Origin: Mycobacterium sp. NBC_00419
GTDB lineage: Bacteria > Actinomycetota > Actinomycetes > Mycobacteriales > Mycobacteriaceae
DNA length: 64,000 nt
Assembly: GCF_036023875.1 (NCBI RefSeq)
Contig: NZ_CP107931.1
Span: 1,674,001 to 1,738,000, forward strand
Direction of reading: 5' to 3'
This document shows, piece after piece, positions 57,662-62,798 of this stretch (position 1 is the stretch's first letter; each line of letters begins with the position of its first letter). The notes beneath the pieces are model-generated. The model had not been told where the DNA came from. It saw nothing but the letters and a program-made list of their open reading frames with translations, and did no database searches. The position numbers and the translations under genes were made by a program.

Positions 57662-60271
57662 GTGGAAGATAAGCGTGTGGACACCGTCCAACCGCCTCGT
57701 GTGACATCCGGCGGCGAACCGCCGCCGGAGACGCTATCGGAAAGTGATGGGCAGCCCGCCTCTTCCGGCGCGAAGCGGAAGCGAGGCGAGCTGCGCATCT
57801 ACCTTGGTGCGGCACCCGGTGTCGGCAAGACCTTCGCCATGCTCGGCGAAGCTCATCGCCGGATCGAACGCGGCACCGATCTGGTGGCGGCGGTGGTCGA
57901 GACGCACGGCCGTAAGAAGACCGCCGAGTTGCTCGAGGGCGTCGAGATCGTCCCCCCGCGTTACATCGAGTACCGCGGCAGCCGTTTCCCCGAGCTCGAC
58001 GTGCCCGCGGTGCTGGCCCGCCGTCCCGAGGTCGTCCTGGTCGACGAGCTGGCCCACACCAACACTCCCGGCAGCAAGAACCCCAAACGGTGGATGGATA
58101 TCGAGGAGTTGCTCGACGCCGGTATCACGGTGCTGTCCACCGTCAACGTCCAGCATCTGGAAAGCCTCAACGACGTCGTCGCGCAGATCACCGGCATTGA
58201 GCAGCAGGAGACGGTGCCCGACGAGATCGTGCGCCAGGCGTCCCAGATCGAACTGGTCGATATCACCCCGGAAGCGTTGCGCCGCAGGCTTTCCCACGGC
58301 AACGTCTACGCACCGGAGAAGGTCGACGCCGCGCTGTCGAATTACTTCCGCCGGGGCAACCTGACGGCACTGCGTGAGCTGGCGCTGCTGTGGCTAGCCG
58401 ACCAGGTCGATGCCGCGCTGGCCAAGTACCGCGCCGAGAACAAGATCACCGCGACGTGGGAGGCGCGCGAGCGGCTGGTTGTGGCGGTGACCGGCGGCGC
58501 CGAATCGGAGACCCTGGTGCGCCGGGCATCCCGGATCGCCTCCAAATCCAGCGCCGAGCTGATGATCGTGCACGTGGTGCGCGGCGACGGCCTGTCCGGT
58601 GTGTCGGCTCCGCTGATGGGCAAGGTGCGCGAGCTGGCCGCCAGCCTGGGCGCGACGGTGCACACCGTCATCGGCGACGACGTGCCAAAAGCGTTGCTGG
58701 ACTTCGCCCGCGAGATGAACGCCACCCAGCTGGTGATCGGCACGTCGCGGCGGTCCCGGTGGGCGCGCATCTTCGACGAGGGTATCGGCGCGGCGATCGT
58801 GCAGAACTCCGGCAAGATCGACGTCCACATGGTCACCCACGAGGAGGCCAAACGCGGATTCTCGGTGCGCTCGGCGACCCCGCGGGAACGCCGCGCGCTG
58901 TCCTGGGTGGCCGCGGTGGTGGTGCCGTCGCTGATCTGTGCGGTCAACGTCGTGTTCCTGGACAAGTACTTCAACATCGCCGGCGAGAGCGCCCTGTTCT
59001 TCGTCGGCATTCTGGTGGTGGCACTGCTCGGCGGCGTGGTACCCGCCGTCGTGTCCGCGGTGCTGTCCGGGCTGCTGCTCAACTACTTCCTGACCGCGCC
59101 GCGGCACACCTTCACCATCGCCGAACCCGATGCCGCCATCACCCAGTTCGTGATGCTGGCGGTGGCGGTGGCGGTGGCCGCACTGGTCGACAGTGCGGCC
59201 AGCCGCCAGCGCGAGGCCCGGCAGGCCTCCCGGGAGGCCGAGTTGCTGACCCTGTTCTCCGGGTCGGTGCTGCGCGGCGCCGACCTGGACACCCTGCTGG
59301 AGCGGGTTCGCGAGACCTACTCCCAGCGCGCTGTCAGCATGCTGCGGGTATTCGGCGACGACGAGCAGATCGTCGCCTGCGTCGGCGAGAATCCCTGTGT
59401 GACCGTCGATTCCGCTGACACCGCGATCGAGGTCGGCGACGACGAGTTCTGGATGCTAATGGCCGGGCGCAAGCTGCCCGCCCGCGACCGCCGGGTGCTG
59501 ACCTCGGTGGCCAAACAGGCTGCCGGCCTGGTGCGCCAGCGCGAGCTGACCGAGGAGGCCGGCAAGGCCGCCGCCATCGAGAAGGCCGACGAACTGCGCC
59601 GCTCGCTGCTCTCGGCGGTCAGCCACGACCTGCGCACCCCACTGGCCGGCGCCAAGGCCGCGGTGTCGAGCCTGCGCTCCGACGATATCGACTTCTCCGC
59701 GGAGGACACCGCCGAACTACTGGCCACCGTCGAGGAGTCGGTCGACCAGCTCACCGCGTTGGTGGACAACCTGCTGGACTCCTCCCGGCTGGCCGCCGAG
59801 GTGGTGCGCCCCGAACTCAAGCGGGTCTACCTCGAGGAGGTGGTGCAGCGGGCCCTGCTGTCGATCGGCCGCGGCGCCACCGGGTTCGGGCGCAGTGGGC
59901 TGGACCGGATCAAGGTCGACGTAGGTGACGCGGTGGCGATGGCCGACGCGGGCCTGCTCGAGCGGGTGCTGGCCAACCTGATCGACAACTCGCTGCGCTA
60001 CGCACCGGACAGCATCGTGCGGGTTAACGCCGGGCGAGTCGGGATGCGGATCCTGATCAACGTCGTCGACGAAGGACCCGGCGTGCCGCGCGGCACCGAG
60101 GACCAGATGTTCGAGGCGTTCCAGCGGCTCGGCGACCGGAACAACAAGTACGGTGTCGGACTTGGCCTTTCGGTGGCCAGGGGGTTCGTCGAGGCGATGG
60201 GCGGCACCATCGCTGCCACCGACACCCCCGGCGGCGGGCTCACCGTGATCGTCGACCTGGCGGCGCCATGA
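57662..60271 (+). CDS. kdpD: Sensor histidine kinase KdpD
   Basis: This 869-residue sensor controls kdp transcription in response to K+ limitation. A KdpD domain has Walker A GAAPGVGKTF (about residue 49), then DELAHTN and STVNVQHLESLNDVV. A USP-like domain (about 275-395) follows. Then come four membrane helices (DUF4118, about 410-515), a GAF-like region and the kinase core with His655 in SAVSHDLRTPLAGAK, NLIDNSLRYA, DEGPGVP and GVGLGLSVARGF. The start is GTG 57662, six bases after kdpC; GTG 57677 is possible. It is in the same transcript as the structural genes. Confidence 0.96.
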   Translation: MEDKRVDTVQPPRVTSGGEPPPETLSESDGQPASSGAKRKRGELRIYLGAAPGVGKTFAMLGEAHRRIERGTDLVAAVVETHGRKKTAELLEGVEIVPPRYIEYRGSRFPELDVPAVLARRPEVVLVDELAHTNTPGSKNPKRWMDIEELLDAGITVLSTVNVQHLESLNDVVAQITGIEQQETVPDEIVRQASQIELVDITPEALRRRLSHGNVYAPEKVDAALSNYFRRGNLTALRELALLWLADQVDAALAKYRAENKITATWEARERLVVAVTGGAESETLVRRASRIASKSSAELMIVHVVRGDGLSGVSAPLMGKVRELAASLGATVHTVIGDDVPKALLDFAREMNATQLVIGTSRRSRWARIFDEGIGAAIVQNSGKIDVHMVTHEEAKRGFSVRSATPRERRALSWVAAVVVPSLICAVNVVFLDKYFNIAGESALFFVGILVVALLGGVVPAVVSAVLSGLLLNYFLTAPRHTFTIAEPDAAITQFVMLAVAVAVAALVDSAASRQREARQASREAELLTLFSGSVLRGADLDTLLERVRETYSQRAVSMLRVFGDDEQIVACVGENPCVTVDSADTAIEVGDDEFWMLMAGRKLPARDRRVLTSVAKQAAGLVRQRELTEEAGKAAAIEKADELRRSLLSAVSHDLRTPLAGAKAAVSSLRSDDIDFSAEDTAELLATVEESVDQLTALVDNLLDSSRLAAEVVRPELKRVYLEEVVQRALLSIGRGATGFGRSGLDRIKVDVGDAVAMADAGLLERVLANLIDNSLRYAPDSIVRVNAGRVGMRILINVVDEGPGVPRGTEDQMFEAFQRLGDRNNKYGVGLGLSVARGFVEAMGGTIAATDTPGGGLTVIVDLAAP

Positions 60272-60954
60272 ACAAGATCAAGGTGCTGGTGATCGACGAC
60301 GAGCCGCAGATCCTGCGGGCGTTGCGGATCAACCTCAGCGTGCGCGGGTACGAGGTGATCACCGCGGCCACCGGTGCGGCAGCGCTCAAAGCCGCCGCCG
60401 AGCAGCGCCCGGACGTGGTGGTGCTCGACCTGGGCCTGCCCGATATGGACGGCATCGAGGTGCTCGGCGGACTGCGTGGCTGGCTGACCGCGCCGGTGAT
60501 CGTGCTCTCGGCGCGTACCGACTCCGCCGAGAAGGTCGAGGCGCTCGACGCCGGGGCCGACGACTACGTGACCAAGCCGTTCGGGATGGACGAGTTCCTG
60601 GCCCGGTTGCGCGCCGCGGTCCGCCGTGGGGCCGCGGCCTCGGAGACCGACGAGCCGGTGGTCGAAACCGACTCGTTCACAGTCGATCTGGCCGCCAAGA
60701 AAGTGGTGCGCAACGGCTCCGAGGTGCACCTGACGCCCACCGAGTGGGGCATGCTGGAGATGCTGGTGCGCAACCGCGGCAAGCTCGTCGGCCGCGAGGA
60801 GTTGCTCAAAGAGGTGTGGGGTCCGGCCTATGCCAAGGAAACCCACTATCTGCGGGTGTACCTGGCGCAGTTGCGGCGCAAGCTCGAGGACGACCCGTCG
60901 CACCCGCGTCATCTACTGACCGAAGCCGGGATGGGATATCGCTTCGAGGCCTGA
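60268..60954 (+). CDS. kdpE: Response regulator KdpE
   Basis: This 228-residue OmpR/PhoB-type regulator has a receiver domain (DDEPQIL acidic pair, phospho-Asp54 in VVLDLGLPDMDG, Thr/Ser in VLSARTD, Lys in DYVTKPFGMDE) and a C-terminal winged helix (HLTPTEWGMLEMLVRNRGKL, ETHYLRVYLAQLRRKLE). It receives phosphate from KdpD and activates the kdp promoter. Its ATG overlaps the kdpD stop by four bases (ATGA). It is the last gene of the operon, followed 8 bp later by a large hairpin. Confidence 0.97.
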   Translation: MNKIKVLVIDDEPQILRALRINLSVRGYEVITAATGAAALKAAAEQRPDVVVLDLGLPDMDGIEVLGGLRGWLTAPVIVLSARTDSAEKVEALDAGADDYVTKPFGMDEFLARLRAAVRRGAAASETDEPVVETDSFTVDLAAKKVVRNGSEVHLTPTEWGMLEMLVRNRGKLVGREELLKEVWGPAYAKETHYLRVYLAQLRRKLEDDPSHPRHLLTEAGMGYRFEA

Positions 60955-60962
60955 GCGGCCGC

Positions 60963-61018
60963 CGACAGTAACGCCACGGCGGGAAATCGGCCATCCGACC
61001 GCCGTGAGGTTACTGTCG
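60963..61018. terminator. Large two-part hairpin after the kdp operon
   Basis: CGACAGTAAC (60963-60972) pairs with GTTACTGTCG (61009-61018), and ACGGCGG (60976-60982) with CCGCCGT (60999-61005), leaving a 16-nt loop. There are 17 perfect pairs with a 3/3 internal loop. There is no T-tract. It probably ends the kdp transcript. Confidence 0.7.
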
Positions 61019-61055
61019 CGAGGCTGTTTGCGAATGTGATGCCCCGCGCGTTCGG

Positions 61056-61085
61056 CTGACACATCCGTCGGCGGGGAACTATCGT
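61056..61085 (+). promoter_or_regulatory. Candidate SigA-type promoter for the 36-residue peptide gene
   Basis: The -35-like CTGACA (61056-61061) and -10-like TATCGT (61080-61085) are spaced 18 bp. A TGAC-ATC-GTCA dyad (61085-61095) sits at the expected start of transcription and could be an operator. Confidence 0.5.
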
Positions 61086-61153
61086 GACATCGTCATATGT
61101 TGATACGTGCGCGCAGCGCCCGCCCGGCGGGCCCGCGGAGGAGATGATCTGAC

Positions 61154-61264
61154 ATGCAGGTTTCGGAAATCAAGCACACCGGTGGTTGTACCTGTCGCTG
61201 TAATGCCTGCGACGGTGGCCATCACTGCCACAACATCGGTAGCGGCTGCCGCGTCAAGCCGTAA
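61154..61264 (+). CDS. 36-residue Cys/His-rich peptide, metallothionein-like
   Basis: The ATG at 61154, preceded by a GGAGGAG site about ten bases upstream, opens a 36-codon frame ending in TAA. The peptide has six Cys (12, 14, 16, 19, 25, 32) and four His, arranged as CTCRCNACDGGHHCH followed by a lone GCR near the end. A CxCxCxxC cluster next to HHCH is what a small metal-binding (zinc, copper or cadmium) or metallothionein-like peptide would show. It has no signal peptide. It does not read like the known mycobacterial MymT. A promoter-like sequence lies upstream and a strong intrinsic terminator 16 bp downstream, so it forms its own transcription unit. Confidence 0.8.
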   Translation: MQVSEIKHTGGCTCRCNACDGGHHCHNIGSGCRVKP

Positions 61265-61279
61265 CTCTCGAATACTGCG

Positions 61280-61320
61280 ATCAGAGCGCCGGGTGACTGA
61301 CGGCGCTCTGATTGTTTTAT
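61280..61320 (+). terminator. Intrinsic terminator of the Cys/His peptide unit
   Basis: ATCAGAGCGCCG pairs perfectly with CGGCGCTCTGAT (12 bp, 9-nt loop), and TGTTTTAT follows directly. It is the only clear T-tract terminator in the window. Confidence 0.88.
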
Positions 61321-61369
61321 CTGGGCTGATCGGCGATTGACGGCGGCGTAGCAGGGGTATCCGCGAACC

Positions 61370-61852
61370 ATGCGGACCACCAAGTCCGGCAGGCTTCACC
61401 AGTCGGTCGGAATGCTCGCCGTCCAAGGTGCCGCGGTGCTCGTCGCCGCGGCATTCCTGGCTGTCGCGATCGCCGGGTTCATCCCCGGCCTGACGAGCCG
61501 CGTGGACCAGTTGCAGTGGTACGGCATGGATTCGCGCGCCCAACTCTTCGGTGTATTCGGCATCTCGGTGCTGCATAACCTGCTGCACCTGGCGTTCGGG
61601 GTGGTCGGCCTGCTATTGGCGACCAGCTACGCCAGGGCCCGGGCGTACCTCATCGGCGGGGGCGTGATCTTCCTGGGCCTGTGGCTGGCCGGGCTGTTGG
61701 CCGATCAACTCCGAAGCATGCTGCCGCTCAATCACGCTGACAGTTGGCTGCACTTCTCCATCGGTGTGGTGATGGTGCTGCTCGGTTTGACCCTGGCCGG
61801 TGCCCGGGTGCCCACCGGGGCCGGTGGTGAACCGTTGATCGACGAGGACTAG
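61370..61852 (+). CDS. DUF4383 membrane protein
   Basis: This 160-residue protein has four predicted membrane helices with the DUF4383 pattern: GMLAVQGAAVLVAAAFLAVA, then FGISVLHNLLHLAFGVVGLL with its conserved HN/HL, and a final NHADSWLHFSIGVVMVLLG. The conserved His residues within helices are characteristic of the family. Function is unknown. The start is ATG 61370. It is convergent with ppx, with only 4 bp between stops. Confidence 0.88.
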   Translation: MRTTKSGRLHQSVGMLAVQGAAVLVAAAFLAVAIAGFIPGLTSRVDQLQWYGMDSRAQLFGVFGISVLHNLLHLAFGVVGLLLATSYARARAYLIGGGVIFLGLWLAGLLADQLRSMLPLNHADSWLHFSIGVVMVLLGLTLAGARVPTGAGGEPLIDED

Positions 61853-61856
61853 AACC

Positions 61857-62798
61857 TCAGCTGATCGACAGGGCAATCCCGTCGAGGATGTCGTGCTCGC
61901 TGACGATCAGGTGGTCGATGCCGGCCCGCCGCCCCAGCGCGTCGGCCAGTTCCTCGACGACGATCGAGCCGCCGCCGATGACGTCGACGCGGCCCTCGTG
62001 CATCGGCCCGAGTGCGGCCCGCTGCTTGCGCGTCATCCCGATCAGCTGATCGCACACCGGCAGCAGTTGGTCGAACGACACCCGCGACAGATGGATGGCA
62101 TCGGAGTCGTAGGTGGTCATGTTCTGGGCCAGCGCGGCCAGCGTGGTGAACGTCCCGGCCACCCCCACCCAGGTCTTGGCCTGCTCCACGGGCACCACCC
62201 GCAGCGCCTCGCCCAGCCGCTCGCGCACCACCTCACGCGCCGCGGCCACCTCGGCGGGCGTGGGCGGATCGGAGTGCAGACACCGTTCGGTCAATCGCAC
62301 ACATCCGATATCGGCCGAGAACGAGGCCTGCACCCCGCCTGCGTCGCCCAGCACCACTTCCGTCGAACCGCCGCCGAGGTCGACGACGACGAAAGGTGCT
62401 GCCGCCGAATCCAGCTCGCCCACCGCGCCGTTGAACGACAGCGCAGCTTCCTCAGTTCCGGTGATCACCTCGGCGATGGCGCCGGGCACCACTTTGCCCA
62501 GCACCTCGGCCGTCATCTGAAAGAACACGTCGCGGTTGGCCGCATCGCGGGTCGCCGAGGTCGCCACCATCCGCACCTTGCCGACCTCGAAACGCTCCAG
62601 CAGCGCGGCGTAATCCAGCAGCGCAGCACGGGTTCTCGCCAGCGCGTCGGTGGCGAACTGCCCGGTCGCGTCGACACCCTGGCCGAGCCGCACGATCCGC
62701 ATCTCACGGTGCAGGTCGTGCAACCCGCCCTCGCCGCGGTCGGCGATCAGCAACCGGATCGAGTTGGTGCCGCAGTCGATCGCCGCCACGCGCGTCAC
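61857..62798 (-). CDS. ppx: Exopolyphosphatase/guanosine pentaphosphate phosphatase family protein
   Basis: This 313-residue member of the ASKHA-fold Ppx/GppA family hydrolyses inorganic polyphosphate and possibly pppGpp. The phosphate motifs are VAAIDCGTNSIRLLIAD at the start, ITGTEEAALSFNG and VVVDLGGGSTEVVLGD. It is the short, two-domain form found in mycobacteria (Rv1026-like). The GTG at 62798 overlaps the upstream DUF501 stop as GTGA and has GAGGA six bases upstream; the GTG at 62804 touches that site and is less likely. It is cotranscribed with DUF501 and the FtsB-like gene. Confidence 0.93.
   Translation of the reverse strand: MTRVAAIDCGTNSIRLLIADRGEGGLHDLHREMRIVRLGQGVDATGQFATDALARTRAALLDYAALLERFEVGKVRMVATSATRDAANRDVFFQMTAEVLGKVVPGAIAEVITGTEEAALSFNGAVGELDSAAAPFVVVDLGGGSTEVVLGDAGGVQASFSADIGCVRLTERCLHSDPPTPAEVAAAREVVRERLGEALRVVPVEQAKTWVGVAGTFTTLAALAQNMTTYDSDAIHLSRVSFDQLLPVCDQLIGMTRKQRAALGPMHEGRVDVIGGGSIVVEELADALGRRAGIDHLIVSEHDILDGIALSIS

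Follow-up and report, generated by a model that had tools for sequence, protein, structure and literature searches.

The question raised by this locus is whether a 36-codon frame in Mycobacterium sp. NBC_00419 is a genuine gene and, if so, what its Cys- and His-rich peptide does in the cell. The window (the whole stretch of DNA that was analyzed, 64,000 nucleotides) contains the following features in and around this frame.

61056..61061, + strand: -35-like hexamer CTGACA (consensus scan), separated by an 18-nt spacer from the -10-like hexamer
61080..61085, + strand: -10-like hexamer TATCGT; many relatives have TATYGT or a near variant
61092..61105, + strand: GTCATATGTTGATA, a conserved element where the transcript would be expected to start (sequence comparison), with one occurrence in its own genome
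61118..61132, + strand: predicted G+C-rich leader hairpin (folding); the leaders of L109 and L161 also have a hairpin here
61137..61143, + strand: Shine-Dalgarno sequence GGAGGAG (letter check); many relatives have a AAGGAGATG-like sequence
61154..61264, + strand: 36-codon gene with the product MQVSEIKHTGGCTCRCNACDGGHHCHNIGSGCRVKP, from the ATG at 61154 to a TAA ending at 61264
61187..61249, + strand: codons of the core C12-x-C-x-C-x2-C-x4-H-C-x-N-x4-C32 (alignments A1 and A2)
61280..61320, + strand: intrinsic terminator with 12-nt arms, a 9-nt loop and a T-tract (repeat search and folding)

A small gene with its own expression signals

The initial annotation had described a self-contained, overlooked small gene with a promoter-like pair (CTGACA, 18 nt, TATCGT), a GGAGGAG site and a 12-bp terminator. 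Comparison letter by letter bore out the promoter-like pair, the 36-codon frame and the GGAGGAG site, which stands 10 nt before the ATG. The terminator arms (61280-61291 and 61301-61312) are paired at 12/12 positions and are followed by TGTTTTAT. The dyad that had been proposed at +1 is imperfect and was not listed by the repeat search (at least 9 nt), although the site itself is the conserved element GTCATATGTTGATA. The -35 region is similar (CTGACA/TTCACG) in some relatives and variable in others. The peptide has six Cys and four His in 36 residues, as had been claimed, with no two Cys adjacent and, judged by eye, no hydrophobic stretch that would indicate a signal peptide.

Scans of positions 60000-62500 found one promoter site versus 0.2 expected and one terminator site versus 0.7 expected, so that the scans alone are weak support. 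The peptide gene has the highest Cys-plus-His fraction among the 299 small frames (25 to 60 amino acids) of the window; Cys richness alone is a weak argument because seven of these frames have at least six Cys. It is conservation across genomes, described below, that lifts the gene above chance level.

The terminator hairpin folds at -28.4 kcal/mol (z, -7.2; 0/200 shuffles as good), and the presumed whole transcript folds barely better than its shuffles (z, -1.46; 15/200 as good). Of the 108 unique copies for which 80 nt or more of downstream sequence was available, 18 have a terminator-like hairpin, compared to 3.0 expected from mononucleotide shuffles. The terminator is a trait of the window copy and some relatives, not of the whole family.

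The gene is present as a single copy in its own genome, where the remaining matches had E values of 0.09 or worse. It is located ca. 200 nt past kdpE and 105 nt ahead of a DUF4383 gene (PF14325; E, 6.8e-36; Pfam), which is followed by a Ppx/GppA-type gene on the opposite strand; the kdpE and Ppx/GppA types were read from the sequence without a search. There is no metal gene among the immediate neighbors of the window copy (kdpDE, DUF4383 and the ppx-type gene). The DNA between kdpE and the peptide gene contains, at 60963-61018, an inverted repeat whose 20-nt arms are 90% complementary and enclose a 16-nt loop; the genome has similar copies at five other sites, which suggests a small repeated palindromic element.

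Distribution and absence from family databases

Homologous frames exist in related species. The peptide as a query matched 190 of 396 genomes of the same genus at E ≤ 0.1, and a profile built from 24 diverse members (A1) found a relative at E ≤ 0.001 in 167 of the 396, or in 147 of 361 when the count was limited to genomes with completeness of 90% or more and contamination of no more than 5%. Outside the genus, matches were sparse. In a sample of the order, 22/298 genomes had an A1 match at E ≤ 0.01; 17 belonged to the same genus, the other five matches were weak, and reading of their frames found the full Cys/His pattern in L086 only. L086 (MKVQHGPCSCECPGCDQGTHC...), which belongs to another family of the order and is the only convincing match there, lies in a frame with an upstream part that looks like a mobile or phage-like region. 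The class sample yielded 14/296 genomes, 11 of the same genus and three weak outsiders (the frame reading left out L096 and L097), and the phylum sample yielded 4/296 at E ≤ 0.001, three of the same genus and one outsider in whose translated stretch the full motif was not seen. A DNA pattern for C-x-C-N-A-C-D-G-G-H-H-C-x-N matched 62 named stretches, of which 60 are titled Mycobacterium or Mycolicibacterium and the other two are uncultured Mycobacteriaceae (L122) and plain Actinomycetota (L118); the pattern is strict, so the absence of a species from this list means little.

Several forms of the peptide can be recognized: a close group (...KHTGGC[TS]CRCNACDGGHHCHNIGSGC[KR]VK), a short group (...CNACDGGHHCGNPPNCNVRR and variants), a group b (MxKDDHKISEKLxxQGCRCHCxxCxxxGHCHNIAAGC), and a group c with frames of ca. 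55 residues that end in ...IACGCHCGSCSSGAHCHNMSSGCNVR.

Two trivial origins were considered. A chance frame is ruled out by the conservation across the genus. A phage or plasmid gene was rejected, since the 36 residues had no tblastn match (E limit, 1) among 50,697 records of phages and 72,556 of plasmids; divergent members of the L086 and L087 types matched nothing in the phage records better than E 2.

When 5.8 billion clustered proteins were searched with A3, 37 candidates yielded 31 entries at E ≤ 10, among them a viral protein (P0027) that was itself part of the alignment; because the search requires shared 5-residue words, these counts are no census. Eight entries carried a name, hypothetical protein in seven cases and EGF-like domain-containing protein in one. 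No family matched the peptide in Pfam (E up to 10) or NCBIfam, and the peptide family had no match in PHROGs or PADLOC. A1 had no match in the PDB, and the one match of A2, an alignment of 25 sequences that includes viral ones, was at chance level (E, 7.4). The literal core strings were absent from the literature searched, and among the matches listed in topic searches no title or abstract opening concerned the peptide family. The few database entries support the description of the gene as overlooked, and it matches none of the family models searched. The peptide gene thus represents a real, conserved, largely unannotated gene family that is genus-wide and not peculiar to this genome.

These searches also bear on the possibility that the peptide is a redox or iron-sulfur micro-protein whose cysteines carry a cluster or serve as a thiol reservoir. 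By ligand number, C-x-C-x-C-x2-C together with C25 and C32 would suffice for a cluster. However, no Pfam or NCBIfam model matches, iron-sulfur families included, and no iron-sulfur assembly gene is among the neighbors that could be named, many being unnamed. Thus, it seems unlikely that the peptide functions in this way.

Residue conservation and selection

C12, C14, C16, C19, H24, C25, N27 and C32 are invariant in the 24 sequences of A1, and the invariant residues are therefore mostly of metal-ligand types, as had been anticipated. All six Cys counted by the initial annotation are kept, but H24 is the sole invariant His among the four in this alignment. A2 keeps all of these residues except N27, and G22 is nearly invariant in it. 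The core C-x-C-x-C-x2-C-x4-H-C-x-N-x(2-4)-C is present in all 70 loci whose surroundings were compared. Exceptions elsewhere are P0028, with Arg at C25, P0031, in which the first two Cys are missing, and two divergent members, L087 and L086, without Asn27. One count was made on 60 distinct cores that had been chosen via a codon pattern for the core residues, so that invariance of these residues there is by construction and the other positions alone are informative.

Nonsynonymous change is far rarer than synonymous change; like the existence of homologous frames, this is an outcome contrary to what the initial annotation had named as refuting its proposal. For the 30 close loci (27 distinct DNA cores), pS was 0.472 and pN was 0.012, a ratio of 0.026. 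The pN/pS ratio was 0.278 for 44 loci with 21-residue cores (41 distinct, close group included) and 0.162 for 26 loci with 20-residue cores (25 distinct).

In the close group, non-ligand residues are also strongly conserved (NACDGGHHCHNIGSGC), which exceeds the need of a plain buffer and fits a protein with a binding partner. It is conceivable, therefore, that the peptide is a structural-metal micro-protein, in which a Cys/His knuckle would hold metal just to fold and a conserved surface would regulate an enzyme, a transporter, the ribosome or nucleic acid. No constant neighbor presents itself as the partner, however, and forms of 32 to 36 residues have only 12 to 15 residues outside the core, which leaves little surface (groups b and c have more). 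We consider this role rather doubtful.

Genomic neighborhood

The 70 loci comprised 30 close matches with 1.5-kb flanks and 40 divergent matches, hand-chosen from the results of the peptide query, with flanks of ca. 4 kb. In some clusters of neighbors one member was tested, and the remaining names were read from sequence. The first neighbors vary and none is constant. A ppx-type gene was near the peptide gene in 41 loci, DUF4383 in 32, an acyl-CoA synthetase gene in 22, a KdpE-cluster member in 14 and an NDMA-dependent alcohol dehydrogenase gene in 11; a ZIP-type gene and a Tes/TrsS-like radical SAM gene were each found in 7, and arsR with a P-type ATPase gene was found in 5. A tandem pair of DUF4383-cluster genes lies downstream in L014, L026, L035, L043 and L069.

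In the five arsR loci the peptide gene has arsR on one side and a ZIP-type gene on the other; next to arsR is a divergent P-type ATPase gene. The ArsR is a metalloregulator according to NCBIfam, and the ZIP-type match is below the Pfam cutoff (32.7 versus 35.1 bits). These loci are close relatives, not independent, and may count as one event, so that the metal neighbors are suggestive, not general. In most other loci the first neighbors that can be named are not metal genes (23 upstream and 7 downstream first neighbors of the 70 loci are unnamed). The full cluster in these five loci (L045, L047, L048, L060 and L062) reads P-type ATPase, arsR, peptide gene, ZIP-type and Lgt-like, with a Tes- or TrsS-like radical SAM gene after the Lgt-like gene in at least four of them. 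A palindrome-like, partly varied sequence (ATACATGTAT...TTGAAATGTATCAA) lies between the ATPase and arsR genes.

The initial annotation had also proposed a modified peptide precursor. The small size and Cys-rich core of the peptide, and the radical SAM gene within the examined flanks of seven loci, would be in keeping with ribosomal synthesis followed by modification. That gene, however, resembles TrsS and the lipid enzyme Tes (one member tested, both matches below the curated cutoffs) and is at least 1.5 kb away, and the other 63 loci have no radical SAM gene in the flanks examined (just 1.5 kb on each side in 30 of the 70). There is no constant maturase neighbor within these flanks, and conservation sits in the Cys/His core, where all six Cys and H24 stay and no variable core peptide is apparent. 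The proposal therefore fared poorly, and we regard it as very improbable.

The arrangement of the downstream gene raises another explanation, that the frame encodes no working protein but serves as a regulatory upstream frame, a cysteine attenuator, of the gene that follows. The window copy has an intrinsic terminator after the frame and ahead of the same-strand DUF4383 gene, the gene that follows shares the strand of the frame in 45/70 loci (DUF4383 in 31), and cysteine uORFs are known in mycobacteria. Yet in 23 loci the following gene runs in the opposite direction (none was seen in 2), its identity varies, and the frame has non-Cys amino acids under selection, no run of Cys, and a start with a Shine-Dalgarno sequence. 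Attenuation is thus the least credible of the functions considered here.

A gene-specific upstream element

Many copies share an upstream pattern, (C)GAACTATYGTGA..T.GTCATATGTTGATA, in which the -10-like hexamer is followed ca. 6 nt later by the element; the promoter-plus-leader pattern can be written TATYGTGA..T.GTCATATGTTGATA. By a score of our own, used without a shuffled control, the element reached at least 27 of 35 in 27/70 loci. Many close copies keep merely TAT[TC]GT or a near variant.

In its own genome the upstream element occurs once (up to 3 mismatches), as does the 14-mer (up to 1 mismatch). Among 108 genomes of the genus, 40 carry the peptide gene according to the profile, and 13 of these 40 have one element match each at up to 3 mismatches; all 13 matches end 28 to 78 nt before the peptide frame, and the reversed element had no match in the 108 genomes. 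A regulon search thus revealed no second target in its own genome or in the 108, and the element was absent from the DNA between arsR and the ATPase gene in the five loci. Because it occurs at the peptide gene only, the search does not name a regulator. The element is specific to this gene in the 108 genomes, and may either be bound by a dedicated regulator or belong to a regulatory RNA leader. The element strings occur in five papers; in the mycobacterial one (PMC7884335), the string is a cloning primer.

If RNA starts 6 nt after the -10-like hexamer, the predicted leaders are 24 to 87 nt long in the copies printed, and the long ones have a predicted hairpin and stretches able to pair near the Shine-Dalgarno sequence. 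Twenty mixed leaders gave no convincing consensus fold (-1.14 kcal/mol; 0/7 pairs with a double change). In 14 close leaders, a hairpin specified by us keeps 99.0% of cells paired, and its covariation score was reached by 13/500 shuffles of these related sequences; two pairs have a double change, no excess over shuffles (211/500). There is thus modest support for conservation of the predicted hairpin by covariation. By eye, TCTGCTCCC of the hairpin in the leaders of L034, L035, L037, L042, L044 and L049 could alternatively pair with the GGAG of the Shine-Dalgarno sequence, which would give two exclusive predicted folds.

A related motif in viral contigs

The pattern C-x-C-x-C-x2-C-x2-G-x-H-C matched 64 stretches in viral contigs. 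These were filtered for stop-free matches with five Cys and no more in the 14-mer, in frames of at least 25 amino acids that either have a start codon or extend beyond the end of the stretch; the filter left 30 cases (27 distinct), compared to 3/36 for the mirrored pattern and 2/70 for a pattern with HC swapped to CH, but it was written after the forward matches had been seen, and the raw counts alone (64, 36 and 70) show no difference. A further Cys follows within 10 residues in 24 of the 30. The mycobacterial peptide fits the viral motif with its further Cys (CTCRCNACDGGHHC...C; A2).

The motif occurs in viral micro-proteins (L188, L237 and L228), as an insertion within proteins of the Amidoligase_2 type (L180, identified with Pfam, and L190 and L209, judged by their likeness), in a C5 methylase (L211) and as the tail of an AAA ATPase (L193); L224 and L233 are further viral contigs with it. 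No Pfam or PHROGs model covered the motif at its cutoff or a low E value in the viral proteins tested; a subthreshold DUF5559 match (E, 0.28) overlaps it in L211. Among 198 phylum genomes, the A2 profile matched three at E ≤ 0.001, all of the same genus, and so no cellular home of the micro-domain outside the genus was found in them. Inserts and tails of larger enzymes are what a structural module would look like, which adds to the case for a partner-binding knuckle.

The viral and mycobacterial forms have the same ligand set and spacing and share G22, and most of the viral forms have the further Cys; they differ in that the viral forms mostly lack the mycobacterial Asn27 and in many cases form an insert in, or the tail of, a larger protein. 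Common ancestry would be one explanation of the likeness, and so short a motif could also arise repeatedly. We tentatively suggest that C-x-C-x-C-x2-C-x2-G-x-H-C-x(3-6)-C may define a hitherto undescribed, autonomous micro-domain for metal binding that is exchanged both in the form of tiny genes and as a plug-in loop within phage enzymes. Many mycobacteria would have kept it as a free-standing metal buffer, and the leader of its mRNA (ATATGTTGAT element, hairpin and Shine-Dalgarno pairing), not encountered at any other gene in the 108 genomes, would be a dedicated metal- or peptide-sensing switch.

Proposed function

The explanation that we favor, with a probability of roughly 0.55, is that the peptide is a cytosolic metal-binding micro-protein, a buffer or chaperone, turned on via the promoter/5'-leader element. 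C12, C14, C16, C19, H24, C25 and C32 would form one compact metal-thiolate site in a 21-residue core with variable tails, accompanied in mycobacteria by the almost invariant Asn27; one Zn site or a two-metal thiolate cluster would fit seven ligands on 21 residues. The site would most likely take one or two Zn2+, with Cu+ or Cd2+ possible; Zn is favored because the ligands include both Cys and His and because a few loci have ZIP-type and arsR genes nearby. The gene would be transcribed from its own promoter and, in the window copy, end at its own terminator, so that it would not be tied to one operon. A signal read at the promoter/leader element would switch it on, and the product would serve as an intracellular metal buffer or chaperone. 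The comparisons establish the gene, its purifying selection, the invariant ligand set and the gene-specific upstream element; promoter activity, metal binding, metal identity, the buffering role and regulation are inferred.

Consistent with the metal reading, the gene is free-standing, its neighbors vary while the -10-like region (and the leader element in 27/70 loci) stays, and the viral micro-domain keeps the identical ligand set. Against it count the lack of a metal gene adjoining the window copy and the fact that the upstream element is linked to no known regulator. A metal buffer or chaperone would be the simplest function, with the partner-binding structural knuckle as the main rival.

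Genes of this class (ca. 36 amino acids, few database entries) are largely missed by annotation and could add a thiol metal protein type to mycobacterial metal biology. Should the micro-domain prove to be a metal module, its seven ligands on 21 residues would make a very small scaffold common to phages and bacteria, and the gene-specific leader would be a new regulatory element to study.

Comparison with known systems

Three known systems are of particular interest for comparison. Mycobacterial cysteine-rich uORFs are likewise short, Cys-rich frames; they are leaderless, with a Cys run and a fixed same-strand gene, whereas the peptide gene has a Shine-Dalgarno sequence, no Cys run and no fixed downstream gene. 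Bacterial metallothioneins of the SmtA type, named Metallothio_Pro in Pfam, are also small and Cys-rich with His, and no signal peptide was seen in the peptide either. In contrast to them, it has a single fixed C-x-C-x-C-x2-C-x4-HC-x-N core and no Pfam match at E values up to 10. MymT, the mycobacterial Cu(I) metallothionein, is another tiny Cys-rich mycobacterial protein; NCBIfam, which may or may not include a MymT model, gave no family for the peptide. Thus, the peptide is probably metallothionein-like in its way of working, and by the tests run it is a member of no known family.
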